In this document: one piece after another, positions 40,491 through 61,465 of the stretch | Layout: each line of letters begins with the position of its first letter | How positions within the stretch are numbered: the first letter of the stretch is position 1 | From: Subtercola sp. | GTDB taxonomy: Bacteria; Actinomycetota; Actinomycetes; Actinomycetales; Microbacteriaceae | Length of the DNA: 64,000 bases | Direction: 5' to 3' | Assembly (NCBI GenBank): GCA_025463765.1 | Contig: JAODBC010000033.1 | Span: forward strand, 1-64,000 | Position numbers and translations under genes: made by a program | Notes under the pieces: model-generated | Told to the model about the DNA's origin: nothing | Database searches by the model: none | The model's input: the letters and a program-made list of their open reading frames with translations, nothing else

Positions 40491-41999
40491 TCAGGCGTCG
40501 AGGTATGAAGTGCCCGACGGCAGAAGCATCTGCTTGATGTCTGTGAACTCCAAGATGCCCTCTGGTCCGCATTCGCGACCCCAGCCCGACTTCTTCATGC
40601 CGCCGAACGGCTGCCCTAGTGACATGCCCGAGACGTTGACGCCGACGGTACCCGAACGAATGCGACGGGCGATCTGCAGGGCGAAGTCGTTGTCTTGCGT
40701 GAAGATCGAGGCAGCGAGACCGTAGTCGGTGTCGTTGGCGATATCGACGGCTTCTTCGATGCCGTCGTAGCGCATCAGCACGGTCACCGGGCCGAAGACC
40801 TCTTCTTGGGCGACCGTCATGTCACGGGTCACATTGCCGAGCACCGTGGGCTCGTAGAAGTAGCCGTGTTCGAATCCGTCGGGCTGTTTGCCGCCGATGA
40901 CGACGTCGGCGCCCTGAGCGAGTGCACCCTGCACGAATCCTTCGACCCGGGTCACCGAACGCGCGGTGGCCAGCGGCCCACGTGTGGTGTCGGGGTTGAA
41001 GGGGTCGCCCAGCGTGAACTTACTGAAGTAGTCGGCGAAAGCAGCGGCCGTCTCGTCGTAACGGCTGCTCGGCACCAAGATGCGCGACAGCGCCACACAG
41101 ACCTGACCGTTGAACGCCTGGGCGCCCTCGGCGAGGTTCGGAATGACTGATTCGAGGTCGAAGTCTTCACCCAGAATGGCCGGCGACTTTCCGCCCAGTT
41201 CGAGCGCGGTGCGGGCGAGCCGGCCGGCGGTGCGCTGCACGATGTCGGTGGCGGCGCGCTGGCTGCCGGTAATGGTCACCATGTCGATTCCGTTGTGCCC
41301 AACAAGGTACTGCGTGATGTCGAGCTCGGCCGGCACGAAGTTGATGACGCCTTTCGGCAGCCCGGAGGTGCGGGCTGCTTCGGCCAGAATGTGCGCGCTC
41401 AGCTGCGATTCGGGGGCGTGCTTGACCACGACGGTGCAGCCGGCAAGCAGTGCCGGAACTACCTTCATGCCGATGAGAACGGTCGGGCCGTTGTTGGTCA
41501 GAATGGCCAGAACGGTTCCGGTCGGCTCCCGACGGATGATCGCGTCTCCGCGGTCTTCTTCCCACGGCAGGCTCTCGGCGATGTTGATCGAACTGTTCCA
41601 CGAGATTACTGCCGCGCCGTTGTTGATGATGCGAGCGTGCGCCAGAGTCGGGCCTGATTCGAACGCCCACGCCCGGTTGAGGTCTTCGAGCTTCTCGGTG
41701 ATGGCATCGGTGAAGCGGCGAACAGCTGCGACACGTTCACCCGGCGACATGCGGGGCCACTCGCCCTTATCGAAGGCAGCCCGTGCTGCAGCGACGGCAG
41801 CATCTGCTTCGGCCACACCGGGACGAGCGACCTTCAGCAGAACCTGCTCTGTCGTCGGGTCGATGACATCGATTGTTCCCGCTTCGGCGAGCTTGATCCA
41901 CTCTCCGCCCACGAACACGGCGTCAGGCTCGGGAATGTCGATGTCGATTACGTGGTTCGTCAGCGTCTGTTCGACGGTACCCTGAACGACTTGGCTCAT
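40491..41999 (-). CDS. Aldehyde dehydrogenase (NAD-dependent)
   Basis: 502 residues. Seen: LPWEEDRGDAIIRREPTGTVLAILTNNGP (cofactor region), VVVKHAPESQ, ITGSQRAATDIVQ, catalytic Glu in LELGGKSPAIL, catalytic Cys in FNGQVCVALSRILVPSS, and PFGGMKKSGWGRECGPEG. The usual N-terminal PWNFP is replaced by TNNGP, an unusual variant at the active-site Asn region. AAGGGAG precedes the ATG. Likely oxidises an aldehyde intermediate of the region D substrate. Upstream 42000-42231 is shared with the divergent P450 redox genes. Confidence 0.92.
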   Translation of the reverse strand: MSQVVQGTVEQTLTNHVIDIDIPEPDAVFVGGEWIKLAEAGTIDVIDPTTEQVLLKVARPGVAEADAAVAAARAAFDKGEWPRMSPGERVAAVRRFTDAITEKLEDLNRAWAFESGPTLAHARIINNGAAVISWNSSINIAESLPWEEDRGDAIIRREPTGTVLAILTNNGPTVLIGMKVVPALLAGCTVVVKHAPESQLSAHILAEAARTSGLPKGVINFVPAELDITQYLVGHNGIDMVTITGSQRAATDIVQRTAGRLARTALELGGKSPAILGEDFDLESVIPNLAEGAQAFNGQVCVALSRILVPSSRYDETAAAFADYFSKFTLGDPFNPDTTRGPLATARSVTRVEGFVQGALAQGADVVIGGKQPDGFEHGYFYEPTVLGNVTRDMTVAQEEVFGPVTVLMRYDGIEEAVDIANDTDYGLAASIFTQDNDFALQIARRIRSGTVGVNVSGMSLGQPFGGMKKSGWGRECGPEGILEFTDIKQMLLPSGTSYLDA

Positions 42000-42231
42000 A
42001 GCTACTCCCTTGTAGGTGGTGTTGGTGCCCTCAAGTATCGCGCAAATTGCTGCGTATGAAAAGGATTATTCGATTGGATATTGACTTTGCTCTTATTCCG
42101 TATGCCGGGCGCAACGGTGCGAAGAGTGACAGAGTCGGGATGACTGGGCATATCGATAATCTGTGCGTATAGTTAGCATGCTGGTAATGAATTATCGACT
42201 CGTGCCCGATTCGAACGACGGAGTTCTTGTA
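42000..42231. promoter_or_regulatory. Divergent regulatory region (aldehyde dehydrogenase / P450 redox operon)
   Basis: 232 bp, AT-rich in 42045-42100 and 42150-42200. It holds TGCGTATG (42051-42058) and TGCGTATA (42164-42171); the inverse TATACGCA occurs at 60244-60251 before the last acyl-CoA dehydrogenase. TTGACT at 42081 has no well-spaced -10. A promoter for both sides is expected, but I cannot place it firmly. Confidence 0.4.
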
Positions 42232-43500
42232 ATGGTCTTGAAGAACGTGGTGATCGCCGGAGCCTCGGTGGCGGGGGTGACCGCTGCTCGTGAACTTCGT
42301 GCGCAAGGTTACGCCGGCCATCTGACCGTCATCGACCGAGACCCGCATTCTCCCTACCGTCGCCCCGAGGTCTCGAAAGCACTGCTCTCGGGCGTTCTCG
42401 GCCTCGACAAGGTGAGCATGCCCTGGCCCGAGGGCCTCGACGCAGAACGACTGGTCGGCGTCGAGCTGACCGGTCTTGACCTCGCCGCCCGCACGGTGTC
42501 GATCAGCAGCGAGGGTGAAGCCCGTGAGATCGGCTTCGACGGCCTCATCATCGCCACCGGAACAGTCTCTCGCCCGTCACCGTTCGGCGAGGGCATCCCT
42601 GGTGTGCATTCTTTGCGCAACTACACCGATTCCATCAAGATGCGCGACGAGCTGGTGGATGCCCGCAACCTCGTCGTGGTCGGTGGCGGTTTCATCGGGC
42701 TCGAGGTCGCCGCCGTTGCGCGTGCCCTCGGAAAGTCGGTCACCGTCGTCGAAGCGGCCGCCTTGCCGCTGGAGCGAGTCTTCGGTGAGGAGTTCAGTTT
42801 GCAATTGCTGAAGAATCACCAACTGCAAGGTGTCGACGTTCGCCTGGCGGCGACTGTGGCTTCGCTCGAGCGAGGCGACAGCGGTGCCGTGAGCGAAGTC
42901 GTCTTGGGCGACGGAAGTCGCATTCCCGCCGACGTCGTTCTCGTGGCGATCGGATCGGTTCCGGCCACCGCGTGGCTGGCCGGCTCGGGCATTGACATCA
43001 GTCAGGGTGTCGTCTGCGACGCCACCTGCGCCGTGCTCGACGAGAACAGCGATGTCATCGAAGGAATCGTTGCGGCTGGTGACGCGGTCACCTGGTACAA
43101 CTCCCTCTATCGGCGTCAGATGCGTGTCGAGCATTGGACGAATGCCATAGAGCAGGGAGCTTATGCTGCAAAACGGCTGCTGGGCATCCACGACCCCGAC
43201 GGGTTCGTCAGCGCACCATACTTCTGGTCCGACCAATACGGCTCGCGTATTCAGAGCATCGGTTCGACGTTCGGCCATGACGAGGCGGTCGTACTCGATG
43301 ACGACCCGGAGCTGCTGCTGGTCGCCTACCTGCAGAACGGTCGTCTCGTCGCGGTCGCCGGCATGAAGGCTGGGGCATCGATCTTTCGTTACCGCGCGCT
43401 CGTGAACAGTGGGGGCTCGCTCGATGACGTGCGCTCGCACGCTCGGGCTCTGCGCGAAGCCGCCGAAGCCAAACGCCAGGTGCTGGAGCGCACGGCATGA
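42232..43500 (+). CDS. Ferredoxin reductase (FAD/NAD(P)H), P450 redox partner
   Basis: 422 residues from ATG at 42232 (GGAG 8 bases upstream); earlier in-frame starts lack a site. FAD-binding NVVIAGASVAGVTAARELRAQGYAG, YRRPEVSKALLSG, second dinucleotide fold NLVVVGGGFIGLEVAAVARALGKSVTVVE, and IVAAGDAVTWYNSLYRRQMRVEHWTNAIEQGAYAAKRLLG. Same type as CamA/putidaredoxin reductase and rubredoxin reductases. Coupled with an SDR, P450 and ferredoxin, so it supplies electrons to the P450. Confidence 0.93.
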   Translation: MVLKNVVIAGASVAGVTAARELRAQGYAGHLTVIDRDPHSPYRRPEVSKALLSGVLGLDKVSMPWPEGLDAERLVGVELTGLDLAARTVSISSEGEAREIGFDGLIIATGTVSRPSPFGEGIPGVHSLRNYTDSIKMRDELVDARNLVVVGGGFIGLEVAAVARALGKSVTVVEAAALPLERVFGEEFSLQLLKNHQLQGVDVRLAATVASLERGDSGAVSEVVLGDGSRIPADVVLVAIGSVPATAWLAGSGIDISQGVVCDATCAVLDENSDVIEGIVAAGDAVTWYNSLYRRQMRVEHWTNAIEQGAYAAKRLLGIHDPDGFVSAPYFWSDQYGSRIQSIGSTFGHDEAVVLDDDPELLLVAYLQNGRLVAVAGMKAGASIFRYRALVNSGGSLDDVRSHARALREAAEAKRQVLERTA

Positions 43501-44270
43501 GCACGGACCTCGTGCTCGACGGGCAGGTGGCACTGGTCACCGGCGCAGCTCAGGGAATCGGACTCGCCATCGCGGCCGGGCTTCGCGCTGCGGGGGCTCA
43601 GGTCGCTCTAGTCGACGTTCAAGAAGAGATGCTGAACGAAGCCGTGGAATCGCTCGGCGGCCAAAGCGACGACGTGCGCGGGTACCTGGCCGATCTTTCA
43701 TTGCCCGAAATCGCCCAATCGCTTCCCGGTCGGGTTGCCGACGACTTCGGGCAACTCGACATCGCGGTGAACAACGCGGGGCGCCGCGGAGTCTACGCGT
43801 TTCTCGACTATCCACTCGCGGACTGGGAGCGAACCTTCGCCCTGAACGTCACGGCTCCGTTTTTGATCTGCCGCGAGGCCGCGAAGATCATGGTCGCGCA
43901 GGGCGGTGGGGGCAGCTTGGTCAATGTCACGTCGGTCGCGGCCGATCTGGCGTTCGGTAACAGAGCCGCATACAACTCGTCGAAAGCGGCGCTGGTGATG
44001 CTGACAAAGTCCATCGCGCGAGAGCTCGGGGTACACGGTGTGCGATGCAACGCGGTGGCGCCGGGCATCGTGGAGACGCCCCTCAACTCGGAGTACCTTC
44101 GCGATTCACCGGTGACCCCGGTCATCCTCGATGGCACGCCGATGGGTCATTGGGGTCAGCCAGAAGACGTAGCTGCACCCGTTGTCTTTCTCTGCACGCC
44201 GGCGGCGAAGTTCATCACCGGAGCCGTGATCCACGCCGACGGCGGCTGGACCACCGGAAAAGGCTACTGA
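43497..44270 (+). CDS. SDR-family alcohol dehydrogenase in P450 operon
   Basis: 257 residues, overlapping the reductase by ATGA. Seen: VTGAAQGIGLAIAAGL, NNAGRRGVYAFLDY, VNVTSVAADLAFGNRAAYNSSKAAL (Ser, Tyr, Lys), CNAVAPGIVETPLN and FITGAVIHADGGW. Between reductase and P450, it is well placed to oxidise the alcohol formed by the P450 to a ketone. Confidence 0.88.
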   Translation: MSTDLVLDGQVALVTGAAQGIGLAIAAGLRAAGAQVALVDVQEEMLNEAVESLGGQSDDVRGYLADLSLPEIAQSLPGRVADDFGQLDIAVNNAGRRGVYAFLDYPLADWERTFALNVTAPFLICREAAKIMVAQGGGGSLVNVTSVAADLAFGNRAAYNSSKAALVMLTKSIARELGVHGVRCNAVAPGIVETPLNSEYLRDSPVTPVILDGTPMGHWGQPEDVAAPVVFLCTPAAKFITGAVIHADGGWTTGKGY

Positions 44271-44322: not shown

Positions 44323-45537
44323 ATGACACCGACAGGTCAGACCGAAGCGCCTGCGATAAAGCGCTACCCGTTCACGCGCACGTCGCCGCTTGCGCCCGCG
44401 CCCGAATTCGATGAGTTGCGTACGAACGATCCGGTGACGCAAGTGGAGTTGTGGAACGGCAACCGCGCCTGGCTCGCGACGCGCTACGAAGACATTCGAG
44501 CCCTTCTGCACAACCCCAATCTGAGCTCGGACACCATGCGCGAAGGCTTTCCGCAGGCCAACGCCACGGCGGCCTCGTTTCGGGGTGGCCAGAGGGTCTT
44601 CGCGCGCATGGATCCGCCGCAGCACGACGAGCACCGTCTCATGTTGACGGCCGACTTCATGGTGCGTCACGTTCGCGAATTGCGGCCGTATCTCGATGAA
44701 CTCATCGACAACTTTCTTGACGACATGCAAGCCTCAGAAGGCCCCGTCGACCTCGTCAAGGTGCTGGCTCAGCCTGTTCCGGCGAACATTATCACTCGCC
44801 TTCTCGACCTGCCGCCCGAAGACAGCGAGTTCTTTCTCGAGCGTGTCAACACGTGGATGAGCCTCGAAGTCGAGCCGGCCGTGTCGGCACAGGCCGGAGC
44901 CGACTCGCTCGCCTACTTCGATCGTCTCATCACCTCCCGACTCGAAAGCACCGCCGACGACCTCGTCAGCCGGTTGATTCGCGAGCGTCTGCTCACGGGC
45001 CAGCTCTCCCGTGCCGAGCTCCAGCACATGCTCGGACTCATCCTCGTGGGTGGCTTCGACACCACGGCGAACATGATCGCGCTGGGCACTCTCACGTTCA
45101 TCCAGCACCCCGACCAGCTGCAGGTGCTGCTCGACGACCCGAGCCTCTTGCCGAACGCAGTCGAAGAGCTCTTGCGTTATCTCACCGTCGCCCATCACGT
45201 GGCCTATCGCATCGCTGCGGGGCCGATCGAGATCGCCGGCCGGAGCATCAGGGAGGGTGACGGCGTGATCGCTCCACTTATGGCCGCGAACTACGACCCC
45301 GAGGTCTTTCCCTCGCCTCACACGTTCGACATTCAGCGGGACGCCCGGGGTCACCTCGCCTTCGGCTATGGGGTGCACCAGTGTCTCGGTCAGGCGCTCG
45401 CCCGGGTCGAGCTGCAGGCCGTGTTCGGCAAGCTGTTCCAGCGGCTGCCGAACATCCGTCTCGCCGTACCCGAGAACGAGCTGCGCTTCAAAGACTCGCT
45501 CATCTACGGGGTCGTCGCTTTGCCCGTCACCTGGTGA
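44323..45537 (+). CDS. Cytochrome P450 (CYP105-like soluble type)
   Basis: 404 residues, soluble bacterial P450. Start RYPFTRTSPLAPAPEFDELRTNDPVTQVELWNG, C-helix MDPPQHDEHRLMLTADF, I-helix oxygen-binding LILVGGFDTTANMIALG, ExxR in EELLRYL, and haem ligand in HLAFGYGVHQCLGQALARVELQ (Cys about 353). AAGGAG precedes the ATG. With its own ferredoxin and reductase it forms a class I system. Substrate unknown; the island suggests a cyclic terpenoid or bicyclic ketone. The CYP105-like label is from the N-terminal style only. Confidence 0.95.
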   Translation: MTPTGQTEAPAIKRYPFTRTSPLAPAPEFDELRTNDPVTQVELWNGNRAWLATRYEDIRALLHNPNLSSDTMREGFPQANATAASFRGGQRVFARMDPPQHDEHRLMLTADFMVRHVRELRPYLDELIDNFLDDMQASEGPVDLVKVLAQPVPANIITRLLDLPPEDSEFFLERVNTWMSLEVEPAVSAQAGADSLAYFDRLITSRLESTADDLVSRLIRERLLTGQLSRAELQHMLGLILVGGFDTTANMIALGTLTFIQHPDQLQVLLDDPSLLPNAVEELLRYLTVAHHVAYRIAAGPIEIAGRSIREGDGVIAPLMAANYDPEVFPSPHTFDIQRDARGHLAFGYGVHQCLGQALARVELQAVFGKLFQRLPNIRLAVPENELRFKDSLIYGVVALPVTW

Positions 45538-45575: not shown

Positions 45576-45791
45576 ATGTCAGTCAAAATCGAGGTCATGC
45601 GCGAACGGTGCATGGGTGCCGGAAACTGCGCCGAGGTGTCACCGGACTACTTCGACCAGGATTCCATCGACGGTACAGTGGTGCTGCTGCGCTCAGACGT
45701 CGAACCGGGTGACGAGCACGAGGTCGAGACGGCCGCCGATGTGTGCCCCGTCGCCGCCATTCTCGTGAAGAAGACCGCTGCTTCGGTCTGA
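45576..45791 (+). CDS. Small [3Fe-4S]-type ferredoxin, P450 partner
   Basis: 71 residues. Cluster ligands in RERCMGAGNCAEVSPDYF and the C-terminal CPVAAI, i.e. three Cys with the central one of the CxxCxxC run missing, as in actinobacterial P450 ferredoxins (SoyB/FdxD type). 38 bp after the P450 with AAAGG upstream. Transfers electrons from the reductase at 42232 to the P450. Confidence 0.93.
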   Translation: MSVKIEVMRERCMGAGNCAEVSPDYFDQDSIDGTVVLLRSDVEPGDEHEVETAADVCPVAAILVKKTAASV

Positions 45792-45824
45792 TCCGGTCGA
45801 CGCCGGGAGATCTCGGGTACCGCA

Positions 45825-47554: not shown

Positions 47555-47601
47555 GTCCGGCTTTTCCTCTCTGAAGCGACCTCTCGACAAGCTTGGCGTG
47601 C

Positions 47602-47643
47602 TTGCTTCGCATATACAAGATCAATATAATCATGATCATAGTA
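47602..47643 (+). promoter_or_regulatory. Strong promoter of amidohydrolase operon with TCATGATCATAGTA operator
   Basis: TTGCTT (47602-47607), 17 bases, TATAAT (47625-47630, perfect -10). TCATGATCATAGTA (47630-47643) covers the expected transcription start. The same 14 bases occur at 58854-58867 before the GntR gene. This is the clearest regulated promoter in region D. Confidence 0.75.
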
Positions 47644-47667
47644 AGCACCTAAGTTTCGGAGGATGCC

Positions 47668-48801
47668 ATGACAACGCAGTTAGCAACTCCCGCACCCGTG
47701 TTCGGGTCGGAGACCACGTACCCCATCGTGGATTGCGATATTCACCCCATGGCTCCGTCGACGGCGGACTTCTATCCCTATCTCTCATCGGCCTGGCGTC
47801 AGCACTTCGACGAGCGCGGCATTCGAACCTACGCCCGGGCTCGTGACCGGTACAACCACCCCGCCGACACCCAGCGGCTCGACGCGTACCCTGAAGACGG
47901 GGGGCCTGCGGGCTCAGACCCTGCGATGACCATCGCGCGTCACCTCGACCCTTTCGGCATCAGCGTGGCGCTGTTGCTGCCGCAGCAGCCGTACGGCGTC
48001 ACGTCGTGGGGAGACGTCGACGCGGCCAGCGCCTTCATCTCGGCCACCAACGACTTCTTCGTCGAAAAGTGGGTCGGCTACGACGAGCGCTACAGCCTCG
48101 CGGTAACGGTCTCGCCGCACGACCCCGCCGCCGCCGCCGCGGAGATCCGCCGGCACGCGGACACCCCCGGGGTGATTGCGGTACAGCTGCTGCTGATGGA
48201 TCGCATGCTGGGCGACACCTGGTATGACCCGATCTACGAAGCCGCCTGCGAGGCCGGTCTTCCGATCGCAATGCACCAGAGCGGGGCAGAAGGGTGCTTC
48301 ACGTACTCTCAAGGCCCGGCAGTCGGTGTTCCGCGGTCATACGGCGAACGTCACGTGGTGCTGACTCAGGTCGGCGCAGCGAATGTCGCAGACATGGTGG
48401 TGGGTGGGGCCTTTGAGCGTTTTCCTGAACTCAAGGTCGTCATGGTCGAGTGGGGGTTCAGCTGGCTTCCGTCGCTGAGCAACCGACTTGATCTGTTCTG
48501 GCAGCGTGACCCTTCAGCCGCCCTGCGCATCAAGAAGCTTCCGAGCGAGTACATCCAGAAGCACTTCACCTTCACCACGCAGCCGCTTGACGAGGTCGAG
48601 ACGCAAGCCGACCGAAAGGCGCTCTTCTCTGCTAGTGGGCTCAGCGACATGTTGCTGTTCAGCTCGGACTACCCGCACTACGACACCGATGACCCCCGAT
48701 TCGTGCTGCAGAACAAGATTCCAGAAGAATTGCGGGCCGCGCTCTGCTACCAAAACGCGGTCGGGGTGTTTGGGCCCGAGATTCTGCGTGCCGTCGCCTG
48801 A
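47668..48801 (+). CDS. Amidohydrolase-2 family metal-dependent hydrolase/decarboxylase
   Basis: 377 residues, TIM-barrel of the ACMSD/amidohydrolase-2 group. Seen: N-terminal metal motif IVDCDIHPM (D-I-H), LPIAMHQSGAEG (His), VVMVEWGFSWLPSLSNRLD (Glu in the EWGFSW position) and LLFSSDYPHYDTDDP (catalytic Asp). All expected metal and catalytic positions are present. GGAGG precedes the ATG. It opens the operon and probably hydrolyses or decarboxylates a ring-derived acid; the paralogue next door lacks several of these residues. Confidence 0.88.
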   Translation: MTTQLATPAPVFGSETTYPIVDCDIHPMAPSTADFYPYLSSAWRQHFDERGIRTYARARDRYNHPADTQRLDAYPEDGGPAGSDPAMTIARHLDPFGISVALLLPQQPYGVTSWGDVDAASAFISATNDFFVEKWVGYDERYSLAVTVSPHDPAAAAAEIRRHADTPGVIAVQLLLMDRMLGDTWYDPIYEAACEAGLPIAMHQSGAEGCFTYSQGPAVGVPRSYGERHVVLTQVGAANVADMVVGGAFERFPELKVVMVEWGFSWLPSLSNRLDLFWQRDPSAALRIKKLPSEYIQKHFTFTTQPLDEVETQADRKALFSASGLSDMLLFSSDYPHYDTDDPRFVLQNKIPEELRAALCYQNAVGVFGPEILRAVA

Positions 48802-48872
48802 GGCGCAGCCACGAGCATCCGTCGCCCGGCACCGCGCCGCGCAGCAAGCCCAGACCTACAGAGAGGTACGTC

Positions 48873-49883
48873 ATGATTTTTGACGTTGACCGCCACGTCG
48901 CGGTTCAGAGTTACAGCGAGATCTTTCCGTTCATGGAACACTCCTGGCAGAAGCATTTCGAACGAAAGGAGTTCGTCGGTTCCATCGCGGAGTCGTCGAA
49001 CCACATCAGGGTCTCGAGCAGATTCGGCGATGCGCCTGAATCTGCCCCGGCGCTGGTCGAGGCAGACCATACTCTGCTCGTGCCGCACCAGGCACTGACC
49101 GTCAACGGCTGGGCCGACAACGTCGCCGCAGTAGTCTTCGTCGAGGCATTCAACAGCTTCGCCGCAGAGAACTGGGTGAGCGAGAAATCGGCCCCCGCCA
49201 TTGTCGTTTCTGCTGCCGACCCGGAATGGTCGGCGCGCGAGATCACGCGTCGCGCGGGTGACGGTGGTTTCGGCGCCGTCGCGCTTCCGCTCGGGGCGAC
49301 GCTGGCCGGCTCGAAATATTACGACCCGATTTACGAGGCGGCCTCGAACGCGGGACTGCCGATCGTCTTTCACTTCTCGGGTGTCGAAGGCTTTTACGAT
49401 GGAGCTCCCGGGCTCGGCGGCGGCATTCACCAGACGGCGTTCTCGCGGCTGGTACTGCTGCCTCAACTCGCCGAATCGACGATTACCAGCCTGGCGTTCG
49501 AGGGAGTCTTCGAACGCTTTCCACAGCTTCGGGTCGTGTTCTCAGGATTCGGGTTCAGCTGGCTGCCGTCGTTGCTCTGGCGACTCGATCGGGAGTGGCG
49601 AACGTTCCGGCACGACGTGCCATGGGTGAAGCGAGTGCCGAGCGAGTACGTACTCGAGAACGTCTGGCTGACGACCTGGCCACTCCAGGAGGCCACGATG
49701 GATGACGACTGGCACCGTTTGTTCAGCACAGAAACCCTGCGCAGCCGAATCGTCTTCGGTTCGCATGCGCCCTTCGATGGCGACGCTCCGTCTGACGTGG
49801 TCGAGCAATTGGGCGAAACCGACGCGGCACTCGTGCTCGGCAACGGCGCAGCGTTGCTGCCCTTCGTCTCGGTACGAGCATGA
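48873..49883 (+). CDS. Amidohydrolase-2 family protein, degenerate active site
   Basis: 336 residues, paralogue of the preceding protein. It keeps the N-terminal IFDVDRHV (D-R-H) and IVFHFSGVEG (His), and FERFPQLRVVFSGFGFSWLPSLLWRLDREW aligns with the partner, but Glu of EWGFSW is Gly (SGFGFSW) and the SSDYPH Asp is lost (FGSHAPFDGD). It is therefore probably a non-catalytic or altered subunit that assembles with the first one. Stop overlaps the Rieske start by four bases. Confidence 0.85.
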   Translation: MIFDVDRHVAVQSYSEIFPFMEHSWQKHFERKEFVGSIAESSNHIRVSSRFGDAPESAPALVEADHTLLVPHQALTVNGWADNVAAVVFVEAFNSFAAENWVSEKSAPAIVVSAADPEWSAREITRRAGDGGFGAVALPLGATLAGSKYYDPIYEAASNAGLPIVFHFSGVEGFYDGAPGLGGGIHQTAFSRLVLLPQLAESTITSLAFEGVFERFPQLRVVFSGFGFSWLPSLLWRLDREWRTFRHDVPWVKRVPSEYVLENVWLTTWPLQEATMDDDWHRLFSTETLRSRIVFGSHAPFDGDAPSDVVEQLGETDAALVLGNGAALLPFVSVRA

Positions 49884-50350
49884 CGTCAGAACGCCTCGGT
49901 TCGACTGTGACCGCTGATGCCGCCGCTGGCGCACCTGGGGCGGTCACGCCCGGCGTGGCCGACGACGGTTTCGAATACATCTGCGAGCTCGACGAGCTGG
50001 TGCCGAACAAGATTCGGCGTTCAGCGGTCGGCGGTCGAGAGATCGGCGTCGTTCGCACCGTGGCCGGCGTTTTTGCCATCGGCTCCAGCTGCCCGCATCA
50101 GGGCGGCCCGATGTGCGACGGCGCGATCAAGGGCACCATGGAGCCCTCCGATCGTAACGAATACGTCTTCGCGCAAGAAGGCGAGGTCGTGACGTGCCCC
50201 TGGCACGGCTACGAGTTCGAACTGAAGACCGGTGCGAGCGTCGGCGGGGCCATCCTCGGGCGAATCGGCGTCTATCAGGTCGACGTGCGCGGCACGGCGG
50301 TATTCTGCAGCTCGAAGCGAATTCGCCCGCAACGCCGGAGGGCGGAGTAG
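49880..50350 (+). CDS. Rieske [2Fe-2S] ferredoxin
   Basis: 156 residues. Rieske ligands CPHQGGPMCDG (Cys-x-His) and CPWHGYEFELKTG (Cys-x-x-His), with the fold segments VRTVAGVFAIGSSCPH and GVYQVDVRG. Coupled to the amidohydrolase gene by ATGA and to the CitE-like gene by one shared base. No oxygenase alpha subunit is present, so its electron partner is either an oxygenase elsewhere or, unusually, the amidohydrolase pair. Role unresolved. Confidence 0.93.
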   Translation: MTSERLGSTVTADAAAGAPGAVTPGVADDGFEYICELDELVPNKIRRSAVGGREIGVVRTVAGVFAIGSSCPHQGGPMCDGAIKGTMEPSDRNEYVFAQEGEVVTCPWHGYEFELKTGASVGGAILGRIGVYQVDVRGTAVFCSSKRIRPQRRRAE

Positions 50351-51216
50351 TGCGCTCGGGTCTGCGTTCGTTTCTTTTCGTTCCTGGCGATGACGACCGC
50401 AAGCTCAGCAGGGCTGCCACGACGGCCGCGGATGCCCTGATCGTCGACCTCGAAGACGCCGTCGCGCCAGAGAACAAGAGCGCCGCACGACAACGGGTGC
50501 TCTCCTTCATCGGGTCGTATGCGGGATCTGCCGAACTCGTGGTGCGCATCAACGCCGCGGGCACGCCGTTCTTCGTCGACGACCTCAGGGCTGTCGCGGC
50601 CACGAAGACGGTCGCGATCATGCTGCCGAAGGCCACGGAGGCCAGCCTTCGCGAGTTGGCCGCCCTCGCGCCCGGAGCCGAAATAGTCGCTCTGATCGAG
50701 ACGGCGCTCGGAGTCGAGCAGGCCTTCGTGATCGCATCGCACCGTCAAGTGATGCGGCTGATGCTCGGCTCGGCCGACCTGGCTGCAGAACTCGGAATCG
50801 CCCTTTCGGTCGACGAGATCGAGATGCAGTATCCGCGTGCACGGGTCGCGTTCGCGTCGGCGGCGGCACTGCGCGAGGCCCCGATCGACGTCGTGCACCT
50901 CGGTGTAGCAGACCCCGAGGCCCTGCTCGAGAGCAGCCGGCGCGGCAAGGCGCTCGGATTCACGGCCAAGGCGTGCATCCACCCTGCCCAGCTCGACGTG
51001 GTGAATCGCGTGTTCAGCCCGAGTGCAGGCGAAGTCAGCGAGGCTCGCGACGTCGTCGAGGCCTATGCGGATGCCCGGCAGGCCGGCCTCGGAGTGACGT
51101 CTGTCAACGGCAAGCTCGTCGACCTTCCGGTCGTATTGCAGGCCCAACGGATTCTTGCGATGCATAACGCACCGTCGATGCAGAGCGCGACCATTCGCGG
51201 AGAGGAACAAAGATGA
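50350..51216 (+). CDS. CitE-like CoA-ester lyase (HpcH/HpaI aldolase family)
   Basis: 288 residues from GTG at 50350, whose G is the last base of the Rieske stop codon. Malyl-/citramalyl-/methylmalyl-CoA-lyase type: RSFLFVPGDDDRKL, DALIVDLEDAVAPENK (metal Asp/Glu), VVRINAAGT (Arg), VALIETALGVEQ (Glu), LGSADLAAELG (Asp) and FTAKACIHPAQL. It would cleave a 3-hydroxyacyl-CoA to acyl-CoA and a 2-oxo acid such as glyoxylate, or form such a bond. MaoC follows with a 4-base overlap. Confidence 0.92.
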   Translation: MRSGLRSFLFVPGDDDRKLSRAATTAADALIVDLEDAVAPENKSAARQRVLSFIGSYAGSAELVVRINAAGTPFFVDDLRAVAATKTVAIMLPKATEASLRELAALAPGAEIVALIETALGVEQAFVIASHRQVMRLMLGSADLAAELGIALSVDEIEMQYPRARVAFASAAALREAPIDVVHLGVADPEALLESSRRGKALGFTAKACIHPAQLDVVNRVFSPSAGEVSEARDVVEAYADARQAGLGVTSVNGKLVDLPVVLQAQRILAMHNAPSMQSATIRGEEQR

Positions 51217-51746
51217 CGAACACAGCGACCGTGCAGGCGCCGAAAGAATGGCGAGGTCGATACTTCGAAGACATGGAGGTCGGCGACGTCTATCGCAGTC
51301 GGCTGGGGCGCACCATCGAGCAGACCGACAACACCTGGTTCACCCTGCTCACCTGCAATACGAACCAAGTGCACTTCAATAGCGAGTTCGCGGCGGCGAC
51401 GGAATTCAAAGAGCCGCTGGTCAATTCGTGTCTGACGCTTTCGATCGTCGTCGGCCTCTCAGTGGCAGACACCAGCGAAAACGCCATGGCGAATCTCGGC
51501 TGGGACTCAATCTCTATGCCGACACCGGTCTTCGCCGGCGACACGCTCTGGGCCGAGAGCGAGGTGCTGTCGAAGCGAGAGTCTAAGTCGCGACCACATC
51601 AGGGCATTGTGGGCATCCGCACCAGAGGCGTGAATCAGCGTGGCGAAACTGTCGTCGAGTACTTGCGCACCTTCATGATGTACCGCCGCAGTGCCCCGCA
51701 GGCGGTCAGCCGTTTTCCTGAACCCGCCTCTGAGTGGCGGGTCTGA
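51213..51746 (+). CDS. MaoC-family dehydratase
   Basis: 177 residues, hot-dog fold of the beta-methylmalyl-/mesaconyl-CoA hydratase kind: WRGRYFEDMEVGDVYRSRLGRTI, then WFTLLTCNTNQVHFNSEFAAATEFKEPLVNS with Asn and His of the active site (Asn in place of the usual Asp of D-x-N-x-x-H), and NLGWDSISMPTPVFAGDTLWAESEV. Paired with the CitE-like lyase as in the methylmalyl-CoA route: hydration then C-C cleavage, or the reverse. Confidence 0.88.
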   Translation: MTNTATVQAPKEWRGRYFEDMEVGDVYRSRLGRTIEQTDNTWFTLLTCNTNQVHFNSEFAAATEFKEPLVNSCLTLSIVVGLSVADTSENAMANLGWDSISMPTPVFAGDTLWAESEVLSKRESKSRPHQGIVGIRTRGVNQRGETVVEYLRTFMMYRRSAPQAVSRFPEPASEWRV

Positions 51747-51810
51747 TCCATTTCTCACCGCTCGTGCGATGACGCCCGAGTTTCGCAAACACCCCGAGGA
51801 GTTGTAACCA

Positions 51811-53049
51811 GTGAGCATCACCGACCAGCCCATCATCACCGAACCGCTTGGCCCGACCGACCTGAGAGCACTGGCCGGTCTGAAGATCGTCGAGTTCGCG
51901 CACGTAATCGCGGGCCCGTTGGCCGGCACGCTGATGGCGGACCTTGGCGCCGACGTCGTGCATGTCGAAGATCCGGGGCGCGGCGACCCGCAGCGAAATG
52001 CCGGTCCCGCGAAAGACGGCACCCACCTGTGGTGGAAGGTTTCGGCACGAAACAAGAAGTCGGTCACGCTCAATCTGCGCACCGAAGAGGGCCGAGTTCT
52101 CGCACGGGAGCTCGCGATGTGGGCCGATGTCGTGATCTGCAACTTCCGAGTCGAGACGCTCGAGAAGTGGGAACTCGACTTCGTCTCGTTGAACAAGATC
52201 AACCCGAAGCTGATCATGCTGCAGGTCACAGGCTTCGGCAACACGTCGTCGAAGCGCAATTCACCCGGCTTCGGTAAGGTCGGCGAGGCCATGAGCGGTG
52301 TTGTGAACATCACCGGTTTTCCCGACGGACCGCCCGTGCATACCGGCTTCTCGCACGGCGACTCCGTGACCGGTCTGATGGGTGCGTTCTCAGTGATGGC
52401 GGCCCTCTACCGTAAGAACACCGATCCAGAGTTTCGTGGTGAATGGATCGATCTCGCGCTGTACGACGGACTGTTCCGGCTCATCGAGTGGCAGGTCATT
52501 TTCTACGACCAGCTCGGTGAAAATCCCACCCGCGTCGGCAACGAGTTGTCGGCCGCGCCGGCCGCGGTCATCAACACCTTCAAGACTTCGGATGATCGTT
52601 GGATCACCGTCACGTCGGGCACCCCGCGTTCGGTTCAGAACGTGGCCGCTCTCGTCGGTGAGCCGATCGAGGAGTATGCCACCGCCGCCATGCAGGTGGT
52701 GCGCAAGGCGCGGCTCGACGAGATGGTTCGCCAGTGGATTCTGCAGCACACGCTCGACGAGTGCATCGCCGAGATGACCCGCCTCGAGGTCGTCGCGTCG
52801 CCGATCTTCACGGTCGAAGACATTCTGGCCGACCCGACCTACCGCGAACGTGAGAACGTTGTCGAGATCGAAGACCCCGACCTGGGCATGGTGAAGATGC
52901 AGAACGTCTTTCCCCGGTTGGCCAACTACGCCGGAAAGGTCTGGCGCACTGCTCCGGCACTCGGCGAAGACAGTGATGCGGTGTACAGCCAGGCGCTCGG
53001 GCGCACGCCAGAGCAGATCGCCGAACTGCGCGCCGCCGGTACGATCTAG
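51811..53049 (+). CDS. Family III CoA transferase (CaiB/BaiF)
   Basis: 412 residues from GTG at 51811 with GAGGAG upstream. Seen: LAGLKIVEFAHVIAGPLAGTLMADLGADVVHVEDPGRGDPQRN, NKKSVTLNLRTEEGR, NPKLIMLQVTGFG, and the region HTGFSHGDSVTGLMGAFSVMAAL holding the candidate catalytic Asp. Transfers CoA to a carboxylic acid without ATP. It would activate the ring-opened acid or a downstream intermediate. Confidence 0.92.
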   Translation: MSITDQPIITEPLGPTDLRALAGLKIVEFAHVIAGPLAGTLMADLGADVVHVEDPGRGDPQRNAGPAKDGTHLWWKVSARNKKSVTLNLRTEEGRVLARELAMWADVVICNFRVETLEKWELDFVSLNKINPKLIMLQVTGFGNTSSKRNSPGFGKVGEAMSGVVNITGFPDGPPVHTGFSHGDSVTGLMGAFSVMAALYRKNTDPEFRGEWIDLALYDGLFRLIEWQVIFYDQLGENPTRVGNELSAAPAAVINTFKTSDDRWITVTSGTPRSVQNVAALVGEPIEEYATAAMQVVRKARLDEMVRQWILQHTLDECIAEMTRLEVVASPIFTVEDILADPTYRERENVVEIEDPDLGMVKMQNVFPRLANYAGKVWRTAPALGEDSDAVYSQALGRTPEQIAELRAAGTI

Positions 53050-53090
53050 GGTGCGACCGGTCAGCGCGGACGCCCGAAGGAGTGTGCTCC

Positions 53091-53831
53091 ATGAGTGAAG
53101 TTGTTCCCGAGTGGCAGACGGTCGCTGTGTCGGTCGCAGACGACATCATCGAGTTGCGGCTGCATTCCGGCGAGCAGTCGCTCGTATGGAGTGCAACCGC
53201 GCATCGCGAAGTCATGGAGGCTTTCGGCTGGGCCGGTTCGCGCCGTTCGACCAAAGCGGTGATCATCACCGGCACCGGCGAGACGTTCTGTTCGAGTATC
53301 GACGTTGCGTCGTTCAAGGGCATGCCGTGGGATGAGATCTGGTGGGAGGGGCGGCGCATGTTGCAGAACATCACCGACATCGATGTTCCGGTCATCGCGG
53401 CCGTCAACGGCCCGGCGACCGCCCACGCAGAGATCGCGGTGCTGGCCGACATCGTCATCGCTTCTGATACCGCGGTGTTCGGTGACCATATCCACATCAC
53501 TCGTCGAACCGCGCCGGGTGATGGCGCGCACGCGGTCTGGGCGAACCTGCTCGGCCCGTCTCGGGTGAAATACTTTCTGCTCACCGCGGCGACCATCGAC
53601 GCCCACGAAGGCAGAACCATCGGATTCGTGCACGAGGTTCTGCCGTACGACGATGTTCTGCCGCGGGCTCACGCCGTCGCTGAGCGGCTTGCAACGCTGA
53701 GCGTTCCCGTGCTGCGATTCTCGAAGGCGGCGGTGTCGATCGCCGCTCGCCGGTTCTTCGCCGAAGACCTGAGCCACGGCCTCGGTCTCGAGGGCAGCGG
53801 CCACTGGGTCGACGGCGGCATCTCGTCGTAG
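53091..53831 (+). CDS. 6-oxocamphor hydrolase-like C-C hydrolase (crotonase fold)
   Basis: 246 residues from ATG at 53091 (AAGGAG upstream). 6-Oxocamphor hydrolase (OCH) splits a bicyclic beta-diketone by a retro-Claisen step. Compared from memory with Rhodococcus OCH: SLVWSATAHREV matches SLVWTSTAHDEL, PVIAAVNGPATAHAEIAVLADIVIA matches along its length, and PGDGAHAVWANLLG and YFLLT are shared. The four OCH catalytic residues, His122, His145, Asp154 and Glu244, correspond to His112, His135, Asp144 and Glu234 with a constant offset of ten. The usual CoA-hydratase Glu pair is absent. Last of the CitE-MaoC-CaiB series. Most likely it cleaves a cyclic 1,3-diketone made by the P450 and SDR genes. 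Confidence 0.85.
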   Translation: MSEVVPEWQTVAVSVADDIIELRLHSGEQSLVWSATAHREVMEAFGWAGSRRSTKAVIITGTGETFCSSIDVASFKGMPWDEIWWEGRRMLQNITDIDVPVIAAVNGPATAHAEIAVLADIVIASDTAVFGDHIHITRRTAPGDGAHAVWANLLGPSRVKYFLLTAATIDAHEGRTIGFVHEVLPYDDVLPRAHAVAERLATLSVPVLRFSKAAVSIAARRFFAEDLSHGLGLEGSGHWVDGGISS

Positions 53832-53906
53832 CCCATCGTGCGGCGCACCGGCGGCGACTCTGATTCATCCGAACTTTCACCACTCTCAACGTCAAAGGAG
53901 ACACCA

Positions 53907-54773
53907 ATGGCTGACGCACAGCGCCTCGACATTCCCGAATTCACGAGTGACACACGGCTCGCCGGTCGAACCGCCATCGTGACCGGAGCGGGCTCTGCCG
54001 GCGAGATGGGCGGCACCGGTTCGGATATCGCGGTGCTTCTGGCCGCGAAGGGGGCGAACGTCATGATTCTCGATGTCGACGAAGCCCGCGCCTGGCACAC
54101 CGCCGAAGCGGTCGAACGGGTCGGCGGCACCTGTCTCGTCGCAATCGCCGACATCACCGAACAAGAGGAGTGCGAAGACGCCGTCGACAAGTGTGTTCGC
54201 GAGTTCGGTGGCGTCGACATTCTGGTGAACAATGCGGCCATCGCTCCCGGCGAGCAAGAGAATTTGCGGTCGATGTGGGACAAGATCATCGCGCTCAACC
54301 TGACGGCAGTGAAACTCATGTCTGACGCGGTGTTGCCGAGCATGTTCGAAAAGGGTGCGGGTTCGATCATCCACATCACCTCGGTGGCCGGTCTGCGCGC
54401 CGGCGGGGGCATCGGGTACTCGGCGTCGAAGGGCGGGCTCATCGCAATGGCCAAGGCTCAGGCATACGAGTATGGTCCGCGTGGGGTGCGCGTGAACACG
54501 GTCGCTCCCGGGCACGTCGCCATTCCCATGGGCCTCGGTTTCGCGGGCTGGAATGGCGGCGGAACCGGCGAGATGCGCCGTCGCCGCGCGAAGGCGACGA
54601 TGCTCGGAACCGAAGGCACGGGGTGGGATGTCGCGTTCGCGGTACTCTACCTCGCCAGCGACGAGGCCTCGTATGTGACGGGCCACACCATTCCCGTCGA
54701 CGGCGGCACCACCGAGGTGTTCCCCATCGTCATGGCTGAGACGATCGTCGGCGACGGTTCGGGCAGTCTCTAG
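53907..54773 (+). CDS. SDR-family oxidoreductase
   Basis: 288 residues from ATG at 53907 (AAAGGAG six bases upstream). NAD-binding motif with an insertion, TGAGSAGEMGGTGSDIA instead of TGxxxGxG, NNAAIAPGEQE, IHITSVAGLRAGGGIGYSASKGG (Ser, Tyr, Lys), VNTVAPGHVAIPMG. SDRs with this elongated glycine loop occur in actinobacterial catabolic clusters. It may make the ketone cleaved by the OCH-like enzyme, or act later. Its stop shares CTAG with the stop of the convergent MmgE/PrpD gene. Confidence 0.85.
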   Translation: MADAQRLDIPEFTSDTRLAGRTAIVTGAGSAGEMGGTGSDIAVLLAAKGANVMILDVDEARAWHTAEAVERVGGTCLVAIADITEQEECEDAVDKCVREFGGVDILVNNAAIAPGEQENLRSMWDKIIALNLTAVKLMSDAVLPSMFEKGAGSIIHITSVAGLRAGGGIGYSASKGGLIAMAKAQAYEYGPRGVRVNTVAPGHVAIPMGLGFAGWNGGGTGEMRRRRAKATMLGTEGTGWDVAFAVLYLASDEASYVTGHTIPVDGGTTEVFPIVMAETIVGDGSGSL

Positions 54774-56161
54774 AGCACAAAAGAATTCGTCAGGGAACGG
54801 GCGTCGGCGGCGCTGCCGAGCAGACTGATGTGCTGCAGCGCAGCCGTCGCCTTCGCTTCGCCGAGCACGGGCGTTGCACGCACGAGAAACAGGCGCGCGA
54901 AAGAATCGTCGTCGGGAAACAGGATGCCCGGCCGGCGCCCGGCCAGCGTCACCGTCTCGCCATCGCTCAGGTGCACGACATACTCAACGTCGCCGCTGAC
55001 CGATGTCTGAAGATGAATGCGTTCGGCGAGATCATGGGTAGCCTCGTCAGAGCCCGCGGACTCGAAATAGAACGGGCGGTTGACCGGCCGGCCGAGCAGG
55101 GCCGCGGCCGCGGTGAATCTCGCCGACATCTGTCGCTGCAGCCGCGTTTCATAGGGCCCGTCGGCGCCGACTCCCGGGCTGGCGGTGCCGTTCTCGGGGG
55201 TGTTCGGGCGTCGAAGCACGACGGCCTCGATCTCGCGGTCGCCGATCAACTCGCGCACCTCGCCAGCGAGTTCGATGCTCTCTTGGTTCTGCAAGCACAC
55301 CGCGTACTTCTTGCTTCCCAGCCCCTCGAGGGCGAGCCGCTCGTCGTCGGAGAAGAGCGGATCGGGAATCGCCGCCTGCCCGGCGTAAACGGCGAAGAAC
55401 CCGTGTTCGCCCTCGAGGGCCAATTCTGCGCTCGGGGCTCCGGCGACGGCCAGTGAGGCCGCCAGCAGACCGTTTCGGGCCGCGAACCCGGCATGGAAGT
55501 ACGGTTCCATGCTGCCAGAGACGAAGCCCTGGCTGGTGCCGGCCGATGTATTGGCGGCGATGCCGATGGCGCGCCCGATGACTTCGGCGTCGCCGCCGAG
55601 GGCGTAGGCGGCGGCAACCGCGGCGCCGAACGGCCCCATGACGCCGACCGGCCGAAACCGACGTGCGCTCAGTGCGGGCGGAACGGCAAGACCCAGCCGG
55701 TGAACGGCCTCGTACCCGGCGATGATGGCACGCTGCAATCGGTCGCCCGAGCATCCACTCAGGTCTGCGGCCGCCAGCGCCGCGGGAATGACGTACGTGC
55801 CAGGGTGGCTGCCTTCGCGAAACCCGCCGGGCCCGCAGTCTTCTTGCAGGCTGCTGTGCGCCGTTACCGCGTTCACGAAGGCCGCTGCGCCCGGCGCAAG
55901 GCGAGTGGATGAACCGACGACGACGGCATCGCCCGACTCTGTCGTGAGTGCGTCGAGCGCGGTGCTGAACGGCTCTAGCGCTGTGCTGGCGAGGCTTACT
56001 CCGAGGGAGTGCGTGAGGCGATTCGAGACGGCCGTGCCCGAAGACGATGTCAGCGGGGCAGCGGCCAAGTCGTAGATCTTCTCGGCGAGCGCGTGCGCCA
56101 TTCCGCCGGAACCATAGACACTGCTCGAGGTCACCGGACTCACGCCAGCGGGAATGGTCAT
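54770..56161 (-). CDS. MmgE/PrpD-family protein
   Basis: 463 residues, the length of 2-methylcitrate dehydratases. Seen: N-terminal helical domain with SHSSLQEDCGPGGFREGSHPGTYVIPAALAAAD in place of the usual H-x-x-D-D-x-H pattern, IIAGYEAVHRLG, FRPVGVMGPFGAAVAAAYALGGD, and MEPYFHAGFAARNGLLAA. The family removes water from tricarboxylates or related acids. Here it probably dehydrates a hydroxy acid of region D. Divergent from the alpha/beta hydrolase across the TCATGCATATAGTA site. Confidence 0.86.
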   Translation of the reverse strand: MTIPAGVSPVTSSSVYGSGGMAHALAEKIYDLAAAPLTSSSGTAVSNRLTHSLGVSLASTALEPFSTALDALTTESGDAVVVGSSTRLAPGAAAFVNAVTAHSSLQEDCGPGGFREGSHPGTYVIPAALAAADLSGCSGDRLQRAIIAGYEAVHRLGLAVPPALSARRFRPVGVMGPFGAAVAAAYALGGDAEVIGRAIGIAANTSAGTSQGFVSGSMEPYFHAGFAARNGLLAASLAVAGAPSAELALEGEHGFFAVYAGQAAIPDPLFSDDERLALEGLGSKKYAVCLQNQESIELAGEVRELIGDREIEAVVLRRPNTPENGTASPGVGADGPYETRLQRQMSARFTAAAALLGRPVNRPFYFESAGSDEATHDLAERIHLQTSVSGDVEYVVHLSDGETVTLAGRRPGILFPDDDSFARLFLVRATPVLGEAKATAALQHISLLGSAADARSLTNSFVL

Positions 56162-56189
56162 GTGAACCTCACTTCAGTGGAATGGCAAT

Positions 56190-56203
56190 TCATGCATATA
56201 GTA
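56190..56203. promoter_or_regulatory. Region D operator-like site TCATGCATATAGTA
   Basis: Lies in the 97-bp divergent region between MmgE/PrpD (56161) and the alpha/beta hydrolase (56259). It keeps TCATG and AGTA of the 47630 and 58854 motifs with the same 5-base spacing (centre CATAT instead of ATCAT). TATAGT within it may act as the rightward -10. Confidence 0.5.
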
Positions 56204-56258
56204 ACATTGATAAGAATGATGTTGGTGGAGTTGTTCGCTCAGCGAGGAGTTATGGATC

Positions 56259-57976: not shown

Positions 57977-58043
57977 TCGCAGCGCCCGTGCGCGAGCGGA
58001 TGCCCGCGCGCAACGACCTCGCCGACTCGACCTCCGTCGGTCG

Positions 58044-58820: not shown

Positions 58821-58853
58821 CGATACCCCTGTCCGTCCGAACGATAAGAACAT

Positions 58854-58867
58854 TCATGATCATAGTA
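58854..58867 (-). promoter_or_regulatory. Operator TCATGATCATAGTA upstream of GntR gene
   Basis: Identical in 14 bases to 47630-47643. It lies 34 bp upstream of the GntR start; on the coding strand TATGAT inside it may be the -10 (no clear -35). Suggests autoregulation. Confidence 0.65.
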
Positions 58868-58919
58868 TTCGGGGTTGCGACGTGCGCCGCAAGCGAGTCG
58901 TTCTCACCGAAATTCCGTG

Positions 58920-60301: not shown

Positions 60302-61465
60302 ATGACCCGACTCAGCGTTGAGCAAGAAGAACTCACCCAACTCGTTCGATCATGGGTCGACCAAGAGGTACTACCGGTCGCCTCCGACTTCGATCACCGA
60401 GACGAATTTCCTGAAGAGCTTGTCGAAGCGATGAAAGAGATGGGTCTGTTCGGAGTGACGATTCCCGAGGAATACGGTGGTCTCGGTCTCGACCTGCTCA
60501 CTTACGCTCTCGTCATCAAGGAGCTGGCGCGCGGCTGGATCTCGCTCGCAGGTGTCGTCAACACTCATTTCATGGCCGCGTGGATGATCATGACCTACGG
60601 CACCGACGAGCAGAAGCAGCATTACCTTCCCCGCATGGTCACCGGCGAAATGCGTAGCGCCTACTCGATGACCGAGCCGCAAGCCGGCTCCGACGTGCAG
60701 GCCATCACGACTCGCGCCAGGCGGGAGGGCGACGAGTTCGTCATTGACGGATCGAAGATGTGGGTCACGAACGGTTTGCGAGCCGACATGATCATGATCT
60801 TGACGGTGACCGACCCGACGGCCGAGCCCCGACACCGCGGAATGACAGCATTCATTCTCGAGAAAGAGGCCGGCGTCTCGCATCAGCCCGGGCTCATCGT
60901 GCCGCCTCAGCTGAAGAAGATGGGCTACAAGGGGGTCGAATCCACCGAACTGATTTTCGAGGGGTTCCGCACGCCTGTGTCGTCGGTGCTCGGCGGCGAA
61001 GTCAATATCGGTGCTGGTTTCAAGCACTTCATGGCAGCCGTCGAGCTTGGCCGGGTGAATGTGGGTGCCCGCGCAGTGGGCCTTGCGACCTGTGCCCTCG
61101 AACAGGCTGTGAAGTACGCAAACGAACGCGAGACATTCGGCAAGAAAATCAGCAAGCATCAGGCGATTCAGCTGAAGATCGCCCAGATGGGCACGAAGAT
61201 AAAGGCCTCCGAGCTTCTCGTCTTCGACGCGGCCGAAAAGAAGGCCGAGGGCGGCCGGGTCGATCTCGAAGCCGGAATGGCCAAGTACTTCGCCACTGAG
61301 ACCGCGTTAGAGGTCGCCACGGAGTCGATGCGCATCCACGGCGGCTACGGCTACTCGCAGGAGTTCATGGTCGAGCGGCTCTACCGCGACGCCATGCTGC
61401 TCATTCTGGGTGAGGGAACCAACGAGATTCAGCAGCTGCTGATTGCTCGAAGGCTGCTGGAGTAA
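60302..61465 (+). CDS. Acyl-CoA dehydrogenase
   Basis: 387 residues, canonical. TIPEEYGGLGLDLL, YSMTEPQAGSDVQAI, MWVTNGLRADMIMIL, ERETFGKKISKHQAIQ, RIHGGYGYSQEFMVERLYRDAM and the catalytic Glu in LLILGEGTNEIQQLLIARR. Last clearly pathway-linked gene of region D. The substrate is probably the acyl-CoA released after ring opening. Electrons go to ETF (32322-34085). Confidence 0.93.
   Translation: MTRLSVEQEELTQLVRSWVDQEVLPVASDFDHRDEFPEELVEAMKEMGLFGVTIPEEYGGLGLDLLTYALVIKELARGWISLAGVVNTHFMAAWMIMTYGTDEQKQHYLPRMVTGEMRSAYSMTEPQAGSDVQAITTRARREGDEFVIDGSKMWVTNGLRADMIMILTVTDPTAEPRHRGMTAFILEKEAGVSHQPGLIVPPQLKKMGYKGVESTELIFEGFRTPVSSVLGGEVNIGAGFKHFMAAVELGRVNVGARAVGLATCALEQAVKYANERETFGKKISKHQAIQLKIAQMGTKIKASELLVFDAAEKKAEGGRVDLEAGMAKYFATETALEVATESMRIHGGYGYSQEFMVERLYRDAMLLILGEGTNEIQQLLIARRLLE

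Follow-up and report, generated by a model that had tools for sequence, protein, structure and literature searches.

What reaction would a protein resembling 6-oxocamphor hydrolase (OCH) catalyse when its gene is surrounded by genes for CoA-ester metabolism, and which enzymes would supply its substrate? The question is raised by a gene at 53091-53831 of the Subtercola sp. contig JAODBC010000033.1 (assembly GCA_025463765.1), of which positions 1 to 64,000, hereafter the window, were analysed. OCH-type hydrolases are C-C bond hydrolases, of which few members have been characterised. Enzymes of the family formed by OCH and the Anabaena beta-diketone hydrolase (ABDH) use a His-Asp pair to activate water, which splits a 1,3-diketone in a retro-Claisen reaction that needs no CoA.

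The open reading frame lies on the forward strand, beginning with an ATG at 53091 (an alternative in-frame GTG is found at 53082) and closing with a stop codon that ends at 53831, and it encodes a crotonase-fold protein of 246 amino acids. When PDB chains were searched with phmmer, the best matches were Rhodococcus OCH (1o8u, 2.2e-53; 1szo), followed by ABDH (2j5g, 2.5e-47), while the best enoyl-CoA hydratase, 3qk8, reached only 5e-22. Identity is 41-43% to OCH, with which the protein shares its fold and five catalytic positions, and 36-39% to ABDH (2j5g, 2j5s), with which it shares fold and catalytic residues. An AlphaFold2 model built with 26 relatives (mean pLDDT 92.5) superposes on OCH 1o8u (Foldseek TM 0.93, 1.3 A, E 9.6e-28); the top 12 structural matches are all OCH or ABDH chains (9.6e-28 to 4.1e-25), and the first ordinary hydratase follows at 2.8e-17.

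Four of the catalytic positions, H112, H135, D144 and E234, align with H122, H145, D154 and E244 of OCH at the constant ten-residue offset that the original prediction had proposed. A fifth, H38, was not part of that prediction; it corresponds to OCH H45 at an offset of 7, because the OCH alignment contains a three-residue gap. The catalytic residues of ABDH given in the accessible text of PMC3584854 (H43, H144, D153 and E243) map to H38, H135, D144 and E234 by our own count in chain numbering, with an offset of 10. We tallied these positions across 97 OCH-type rows, comprising the window protein, OCH, ABDH and 94 loci, with five ordinary hydratases of the window kept apart. Equivalents of all five residues are present in 92 of the 97, and H135 and D144 are invariant across the 96 rows besides the window protein. 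In the five ordinary crotonases, columns 38, 112, 135 and 144 never show the catalytic residue; Glu does occupy column 234 in four of them, so that E234 is non-discriminating and carries little weight.

Phylogenetic placement agrees with this separation in two trees of three. In a tree of 102 rows, the OCH/ABDH-type clade stands apart from the five ordinary window hydratases with support of 100/99 and includes the window protein, paired (97/95) with a long row, L015, in what the tree program flagged as a possible false long-branch join. OCH itself forms a subclade with L021, L047 and L014 (100/96), outside which the window protein falls, and ABDH belongs to a cyanobacterial subclade. A tree of 47 rows again places the protein in the OCH/ABDH-type clade (100/99), this time outside the other 42 OCH-type rows together with the second copy from L015 (93/92). 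When that copy, L018, L055, L013 and L016 were removed to leave 42 rows, the protein attached weakly (83/54) to the side of three hydratases, and a topology uniting it with the OCH subclade was not rejected (p-AU 0.187). We therefore regard it as a long, deep branch that is probably either inside the OCH/ABDH family or basal to it. L015 is a locus on a Sphingopyxis macrogoltabida plasmid where two OCH-like genes occur in tandem (11140-12717); copy 1 lacks the H38 equivalent and copy 2, judged by eye, appears to lack that of H112.

Could the protein be an ordinary CoA-dependent crotonase, whether hydratase or isomerase, whose likeness to OCH is superficial? ECH_1 is the sole Pfam domain it matches, and the best 25 of 57 NCBIfam models are crotonase-family models (e.g. 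enoyl-CoA hydratases), all scoring under cut-off; CoA-ester genes lie all around, and the 42-row tree leans weakly the same way. Against this stand the wide gap between OCH/ABDH and hydratase scores in both sequence and fold, the absence of the residues at 38, 112, 135 and 144 from the window's own hydratases, and the 100/99 separation in the two larger trees, which together leave an ordinary crotonase very improbable. By residues and fold, the protein is assigned to the OCH/ABDH type, and it very probably is a CoA-independent enzyme that splits 1,3-diketones as OCH does. The central claim of the original prediction, an OCH-like enzyme at this position, is upheld by the search ranking, the residues, the two larger trees and the superposition of the fold, subject to the weak attachment in the smallest tree. 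Extrapolation of the substrate class is weak, because only two OCH/ABDH-type enzymes with known activity were met in the analysis.

Near relatives are scarce in the genomes sampled. No protein exceeds 46% identity among the at least 80 OCH-type loci listed, or in overlapping samples of 199 family, 396 phylum and 394 class genomes, and plasmid relatives are all below 60%, the best among the matches listed being 41.5%. The sole close relative comes from another member of the genus (G593), found through DNA comparison; it is 95.5% identical, all five catalytic residues are the same, and the ratio of non-synonymous to synonymous change shows the gene to be under strong constraint.

The OCH-type gene is the seventh of eight co-directional forward-strand genes (47668-54773) with spacings of -4 to +75 bp, which encode two PF04909 proteins, a Rieske ferredoxin, CitE, MaoC and CaiB proteins, the hydrolase and an SDR, in that order (Table 1). 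A second block of reductase, SDR, P450 and ferredoxin genes lies 7.3-10.9 kb upstream of the OCH-type gene, with two minus-strand genes between it and the run. The reductase is a possible electron source for both the P450 and the oxygenase described below, and the aldehyde dehydrogenase, MmgE/PrpD-family protein and acyl-CoA dehydrogenase may each belong to the same pathway. On the minus strand at 47015-47590, an HtaA-domain ORF with a TTG start overlaps an MFS gene and diverges from the run; it is fast evolving (70.7% identity and dN/dS 0.35 against G593).

Table 1. Features of the region around the OCH-type gene, with window coordinates and the evidence for each assignment
Feature	Coordinates	Strand	Evidence and remarks
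Aldehyde dehydrogenase	40491..41999	-	55% identity to an aldehyde dehydrogenase of Rhodococcus sp. WAY2 whose gene adjoins an AibH2-like one
Ferredoxin reductase (Pyr_redox_2 + Reductase_C)	42163..43500	+	Profile match; searches run from 42211
SDR dehydrogenase of P450 block	43497..44270	+	Profile match
Cytochrome P450, nearest solved structure 2z36 (compactin hydroxylase)	44323..45537	+	Profile and PDB search
Small ferredoxin	45576..45791	+	Read from ORF sequence
PF04909 'amidohydrolase', AibH2/SfbO-type dinuclear monooxygenase-like catalytic subunit (protein 1)	47668..48801	+	D24, H26, H203, E261, D334, H337, D339
Second PF04909 protein, AibH1-like partner with degenerate metal site (protein 2)	48873..49883	+	8sm6 5.1e-38; ligand alignment; dN/dS 0.035
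Small Rieske ferredoxin, long-spacer CPH...CPWH type	49880..50350	+	Pfam Rieske 1.2e-10; spacer comparison
CitE-like C-C lyase, RipC/Ccl-like below curated cut-off	50350..51216	+	HpcH_HpaI 1.1e-35; RipC 163.8 bits, cut-off 375; GTG start at 50350, searches run from 50353
MaoC hydratase, RipB/Ich-like below curated cut-off	51213..51746	+	194.1 bits, cut-off 340
Class III CoA-transferase (CaiB)	51811..53049	+	5.4e-104; under cut-offs of all 7 listed NCBIfam models
OCH/ABDH-type beta-diketone hydrolase (predicted)	53091..53831	+	H38, H112, H135, D144, E234; dN/dS 0.040 vs G593
SDR dehydrogenase, last gene of run	53907..54773	+	Profile match; ATG at 53907, searches run from 53904
MmgE/PrpD-family protein, convergent with run	54770..56161	-	Profile match
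Acyl-CoA dehydrogenase	60302..61465	+	Profile match

The principal amendment to the original prediction concerns the first three genes of the run, which it left unmentioned. In a PDB search, PF04909 protein 1 is closest to SfbO-type structures (8sm7, 6e-63; 8sm6, 2.7e-56) and to AibH2 (6m1w_B, 3.1e-47), its best decarboxylase match being far weaker at 7.1e-16. It keeps all six metal ligands of AibH2, as listed in the available portion of PMC7782822, together with the equivalent of Asp342, a second-sphere Asp. Protein 2 has G225 and H298 at ligand positions and is missing the last His; it is nonetheless conserved in G593 at 95.5% identity with a low dN/dS, as would be expected of a structural partner subunit. 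We rejected the ligand residues as sole proof of oxygenase function, since all six are kept by every PF04909 protein compared except window protein 2, including weak matches that lack a Rieske neighbour. Two weak PF04909 proteins near other OCH-type genes have PtmU3 (6.7e-48) and DitZ (2.4e-40) as their best PDB matches. The oxygenase assignment in the window is instead based on overall similarity, on the pairing of two subunits and on the Rieske gene next to them.

The long-spacer CPH...CPWH form of the Rieske protein recurs in 7 of 10 checked loci with AibH2-like genes, and in 10 of 14 when the regular expression allows a spacer of 26-40 residues. The part of PMC10811679 available takes the proximity of a small Rieske gene and a PF04909 gene to indicate such an oxygenase, and the gene at 49880-50350 lies within the three coding regions of a PF04909 gene specified there; the accessible text of PMC10401708 reports 90% co-occurrence of the two gene types and counts 555 uncharacterised relatives of AibH2. 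Compared with AibH1H2/AibG (PMC7782822, PMC10401708) and SfbO (PMC10811679), in so far as the available sections of these papers describe them, the window resembles the aib cluster in that a small Rieske gene comes after a pair of PF04909 genes, and in that one subunit, the first in this case, carries the six metal residues along with the Asp342 equivalent. It differs in that three metal-ligand positions are missing from the other subunit, and in that the module sits among CoA and diketone-hydrolase genes, with no dedicated AibF-type reductase recognised alongside it. Judged by homology, 47668-50350 encodes an apparent non-haem dinuclear monooxygenase of the recently described AibH1H2/SfbO type, which would contain Mn/Fe or diiron, and its Rieske ferredoxin.

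This arrangement was compared with the surroundings of OCH-type genes elsewhere, using 86 loci (at least 80 from a one-pattern contig scan and six chosen plasmid loci), many of them short and with flanks of at most 12 kb. Among those listed at E <=1e-8, SDR-like genes occur in 37 (SDR1 query), CaiB-like in 16, P450-like in 14, ACAD-like in seven, and MaoC-like and CitE-like in two each. Weak PF04909 matches to protein 1, of at most 71 bits, occur in eight of the 86, a Rieske match in none of those listed, and within these flanks no syntenic copy of the run was found outside the genus. Seven further actinobacterial loci (matches above 60 bits) include MaoC-like genes in five, CaiB-like in four and P450-like in two, and the oxygenase module in none. 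The CPH...CPWH motif is absent from all 94 OCH-type loci, where eight regular-expression matches were obtained, none of that form.

The converse survey covered 24 AibH2-like neighbourhoods, drawn from 6 of 6 non-window places, 14 of 40 and 4 of 13 plasmid records, three of them on contigs below 8 kb. Rieske genes are present in 22, P450 in eight, CaiB in two, CitE and PrpD in one each and MaoC in none. Crotonase matches above 60 bits occur in two, both without the catalytic residues, and in none of the 24 is an OCH-type gene paired with the Rieske-type module. One actinobacterial neighbourhood (L114, 1-17000) has the order MFS, CaiB, CitE, CaiB, PrpD and AibH2-like oxygenase, divergent from the Rieske gene, with GntR and branched-chain-type transporter genes and no OCH-type gene found; it is the single case among the 24 of such CoA genes beside this oxygenase type.

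The original prediction described a new actinobacterial gene context. CitE, MaoC and CaiB genes do lie directly upstream, and P450, ferredoxin, reductase and SDR genes further upstream, as it stated; the actinobacterial attribution is likewise supported, the window genome being of the same class as G579, whose OCH-type locus L008 adjoins Mycolicibacterium vulneris L091 in the 102-row tree. Novelty holds in part. P450, SDR, CaiB, ACAD or MaoC genes near OCH-type genes recur elsewhere and are not new, whereas, among the sampled loci, only the window and G593 combine an OCH-type gene with the AibH1H2/SfbO-type module, which the prediction missed. Among the papers listed in searches of open-access literature, we found none joining such an oxygenase with an OCH-type hydrolase.

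Within the genus, 12 genomes were compared by DNA, the window's own included. G593 has the whole of the block 40491-54773, with 86% DNA identity, and the other ten have short matches only. Seven of the eight run genes have dN/dS values of 0.022-0.058 against G593, with CitE at 0.203, and the P450 block ranges over 0.037-0.077. The sequence at 54800-64000 is also present in G593, and elsewhere in the genus only as two weaker stretches in G153. This distribution, in which approximately 36-61.5 kb occurs in two of the 12 genomes (its own and G593), suggests an accessory catabolic island. At its edge, forward-strand periplasmic-binding-protein and ABC transporter genes (36364-40143) form a possible uptake system; the first has a Peripla_BP_4 match just under cut-off and the others were read from ORFs. 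Parts of 24.6-34.1 kb occur in several other members of the genus; the forward-strand aldehyde dehydrogenase, acyl-CoA dehydrogenase, ECH_2-type, 3-hydroxyisobutyrate-dehydrogenase-like and crotonase genes at 24686-30134 look like valine/isobutyryl-CoA degradation.

Our preferred reading, to which we assign a probability of about 0.62, is an oxygenase-fed catabolic island in which the OCH-type hydrolase carries out retro-Claisen cleavage of a 1,3-diketone, followed by CoA-ester breakdown. The AibH1H2/SfbO-type oxygenase, the nearby P450, or both would hydroxylate an alicyclic or branched substrate, and the SDRs would oxidise the resulting alcohol to a ketone, the second carbonyl. By analogy with the family, H135 and D144 would then activate water while H112 and H38 helped to hold the carbonyls or enolate, and a 1,3-diketone, probably cyclic, would be broken at a C-C bond lying between its carbonyl groups to give an oxo-acid. 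CaiB, MaoC (by hydration) and the C-C lyase CitE would process this acid in the form of its CoA ester. The reading thus keeps, as a putative order of steps, that of the original prediction (hydroxylation, oxidation to a 1,3-diketone, retro-Claisen opening, CoA-based breakdown); the P450 block, set apart from the run by two minus-strand genes, may or may not take part in the same pathway.

In a camphor-type (CamK) route, the P450 and SDR close by would make 6-oxocamphor, and the hydrolase, as an orthologue of OCH, would cleave it. Such a route would account for the 43% identity to OCH and for the proximity of P450, ferredoxin, reductase and SDR genes; a plasmid locus of the OCH subclade (L014, Rhodococcus sp. 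008) likewise has P450, ferredoxin, SDR, ACAD and MaoC genes, and the p-AU value given above is compatible with a place in that subclade. The 102-row tree, however, puts OCH with three other loci and the window protein elsewhere, as a deep separate branch. The best 60 of 136 solved P450s matching 44323-45537 are led by compactin-hydroxylase and P450-SU1 types and do not include P450cam, and a camphor-type P450 is therefore unsupported by the nearest solved structures. The run also differs from the OCH setting in its PF04909 oxygenase-like, Rieske and CitE genes, which to our knowledge have no place in the known camphor route. We consider this route distinctly improbable.

A further departure from OCH concerns the loop at 133-141, which after the catalytic H135 contains R138-R139 where OCH has S-G. 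Position 139 is Gly in 87 of the 96 other OCH-type rows and Arg in one of them, although R138 by itself is found in 11. The rare Arg speaks for an alternative in which the enzyme, as a retro-Claisen hydrolase of a branched-acid pathway, acts on a non-terpenoid or acidic 1,3-dicarbonyl (an acyclic diketone or a ring bearing a carboxyl group, for example). The PF04909 oxygenase would there put a hydroxyl on a tertiary or methyl carbon, a methyl group being what AibH1H2 hydroxylates. Itaconate is degraded by a CoA-transferase, a MaoC hydratase and a CitE lyase, and the run has the same trio as RipABC and Ict-Ich-Ccl, in keeping with itaconate- or mesaconate-type routes; the second AibH2-like cluster with CaiB, CitE, CaiB and PrpD but no OCH-type gene (L114) and the valine-type cluster at 24.7-30.1 kb point the same way. 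Scores well under the curated NCBIfam cut-offs (Table 1) count against it, and true RipABC equivalogs are ruled out by those of CitE and MaoC. Such a substrate seems to us unlikely, if less so than 6-oxocamphor, and the preferred reading remains an oxygenase-fed route to a probably cyclic 1,3-diketone.

PF04909 genes also adjoin OCH-type genes in other phyla. They occur in 11 of the 94 OCH-type loci, close to the frequency that PF04909 gene abundance gives by rough arithmetic, and five of 14 matches, of low similarity to those of the window, are no more than 200 bp away from the OCH-type gene. Under uniform placement, which ignores gene packing, 0.43 would be expected, and five was reached in none of 20000 simulations; without L088, kin of L084, the comparison is four against 0.40 (P 0.0003). 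A gene-slot estimate, assuming 2 of 18 slots, gives an expectation of 1.6 (P 0.014), or 1.4 without L088 (P 0.048). The excess is thus suggestive, and marginal under the latter estimate. At one proteobacterial MAG locus (L079, 8763-10768), a PtmU3-like PF04909 gene lies 99 bp from the OCH-type gene, with three more PF04909 genes present.

Tentatively, and as a possibility that we would not yet favour, an OCH-type retro-Claisen hydrolase may work together with a PF04909 monooxygenase of Mn/Fe type in one pathway, from alcohol to 1,3-diketone to CoA-free C-C hydrolysis, of which the close neighbours in other phyla (gap <=200 bp, 5 of 94 loci) would be variants. The accessible text of PMC10811679 states that the natural substrates of candidate PF04909 oxygenases are not readily inferred from genomic data. 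A conserved run joining an oxygenase module with a diketone hydrolase offers a concrete, testable substrate class and hints at the role of these orphan oxygenases; if the pairing is real, precursors of ring 1,3-diketones would be assigned to these oxygenases as their substrate class.
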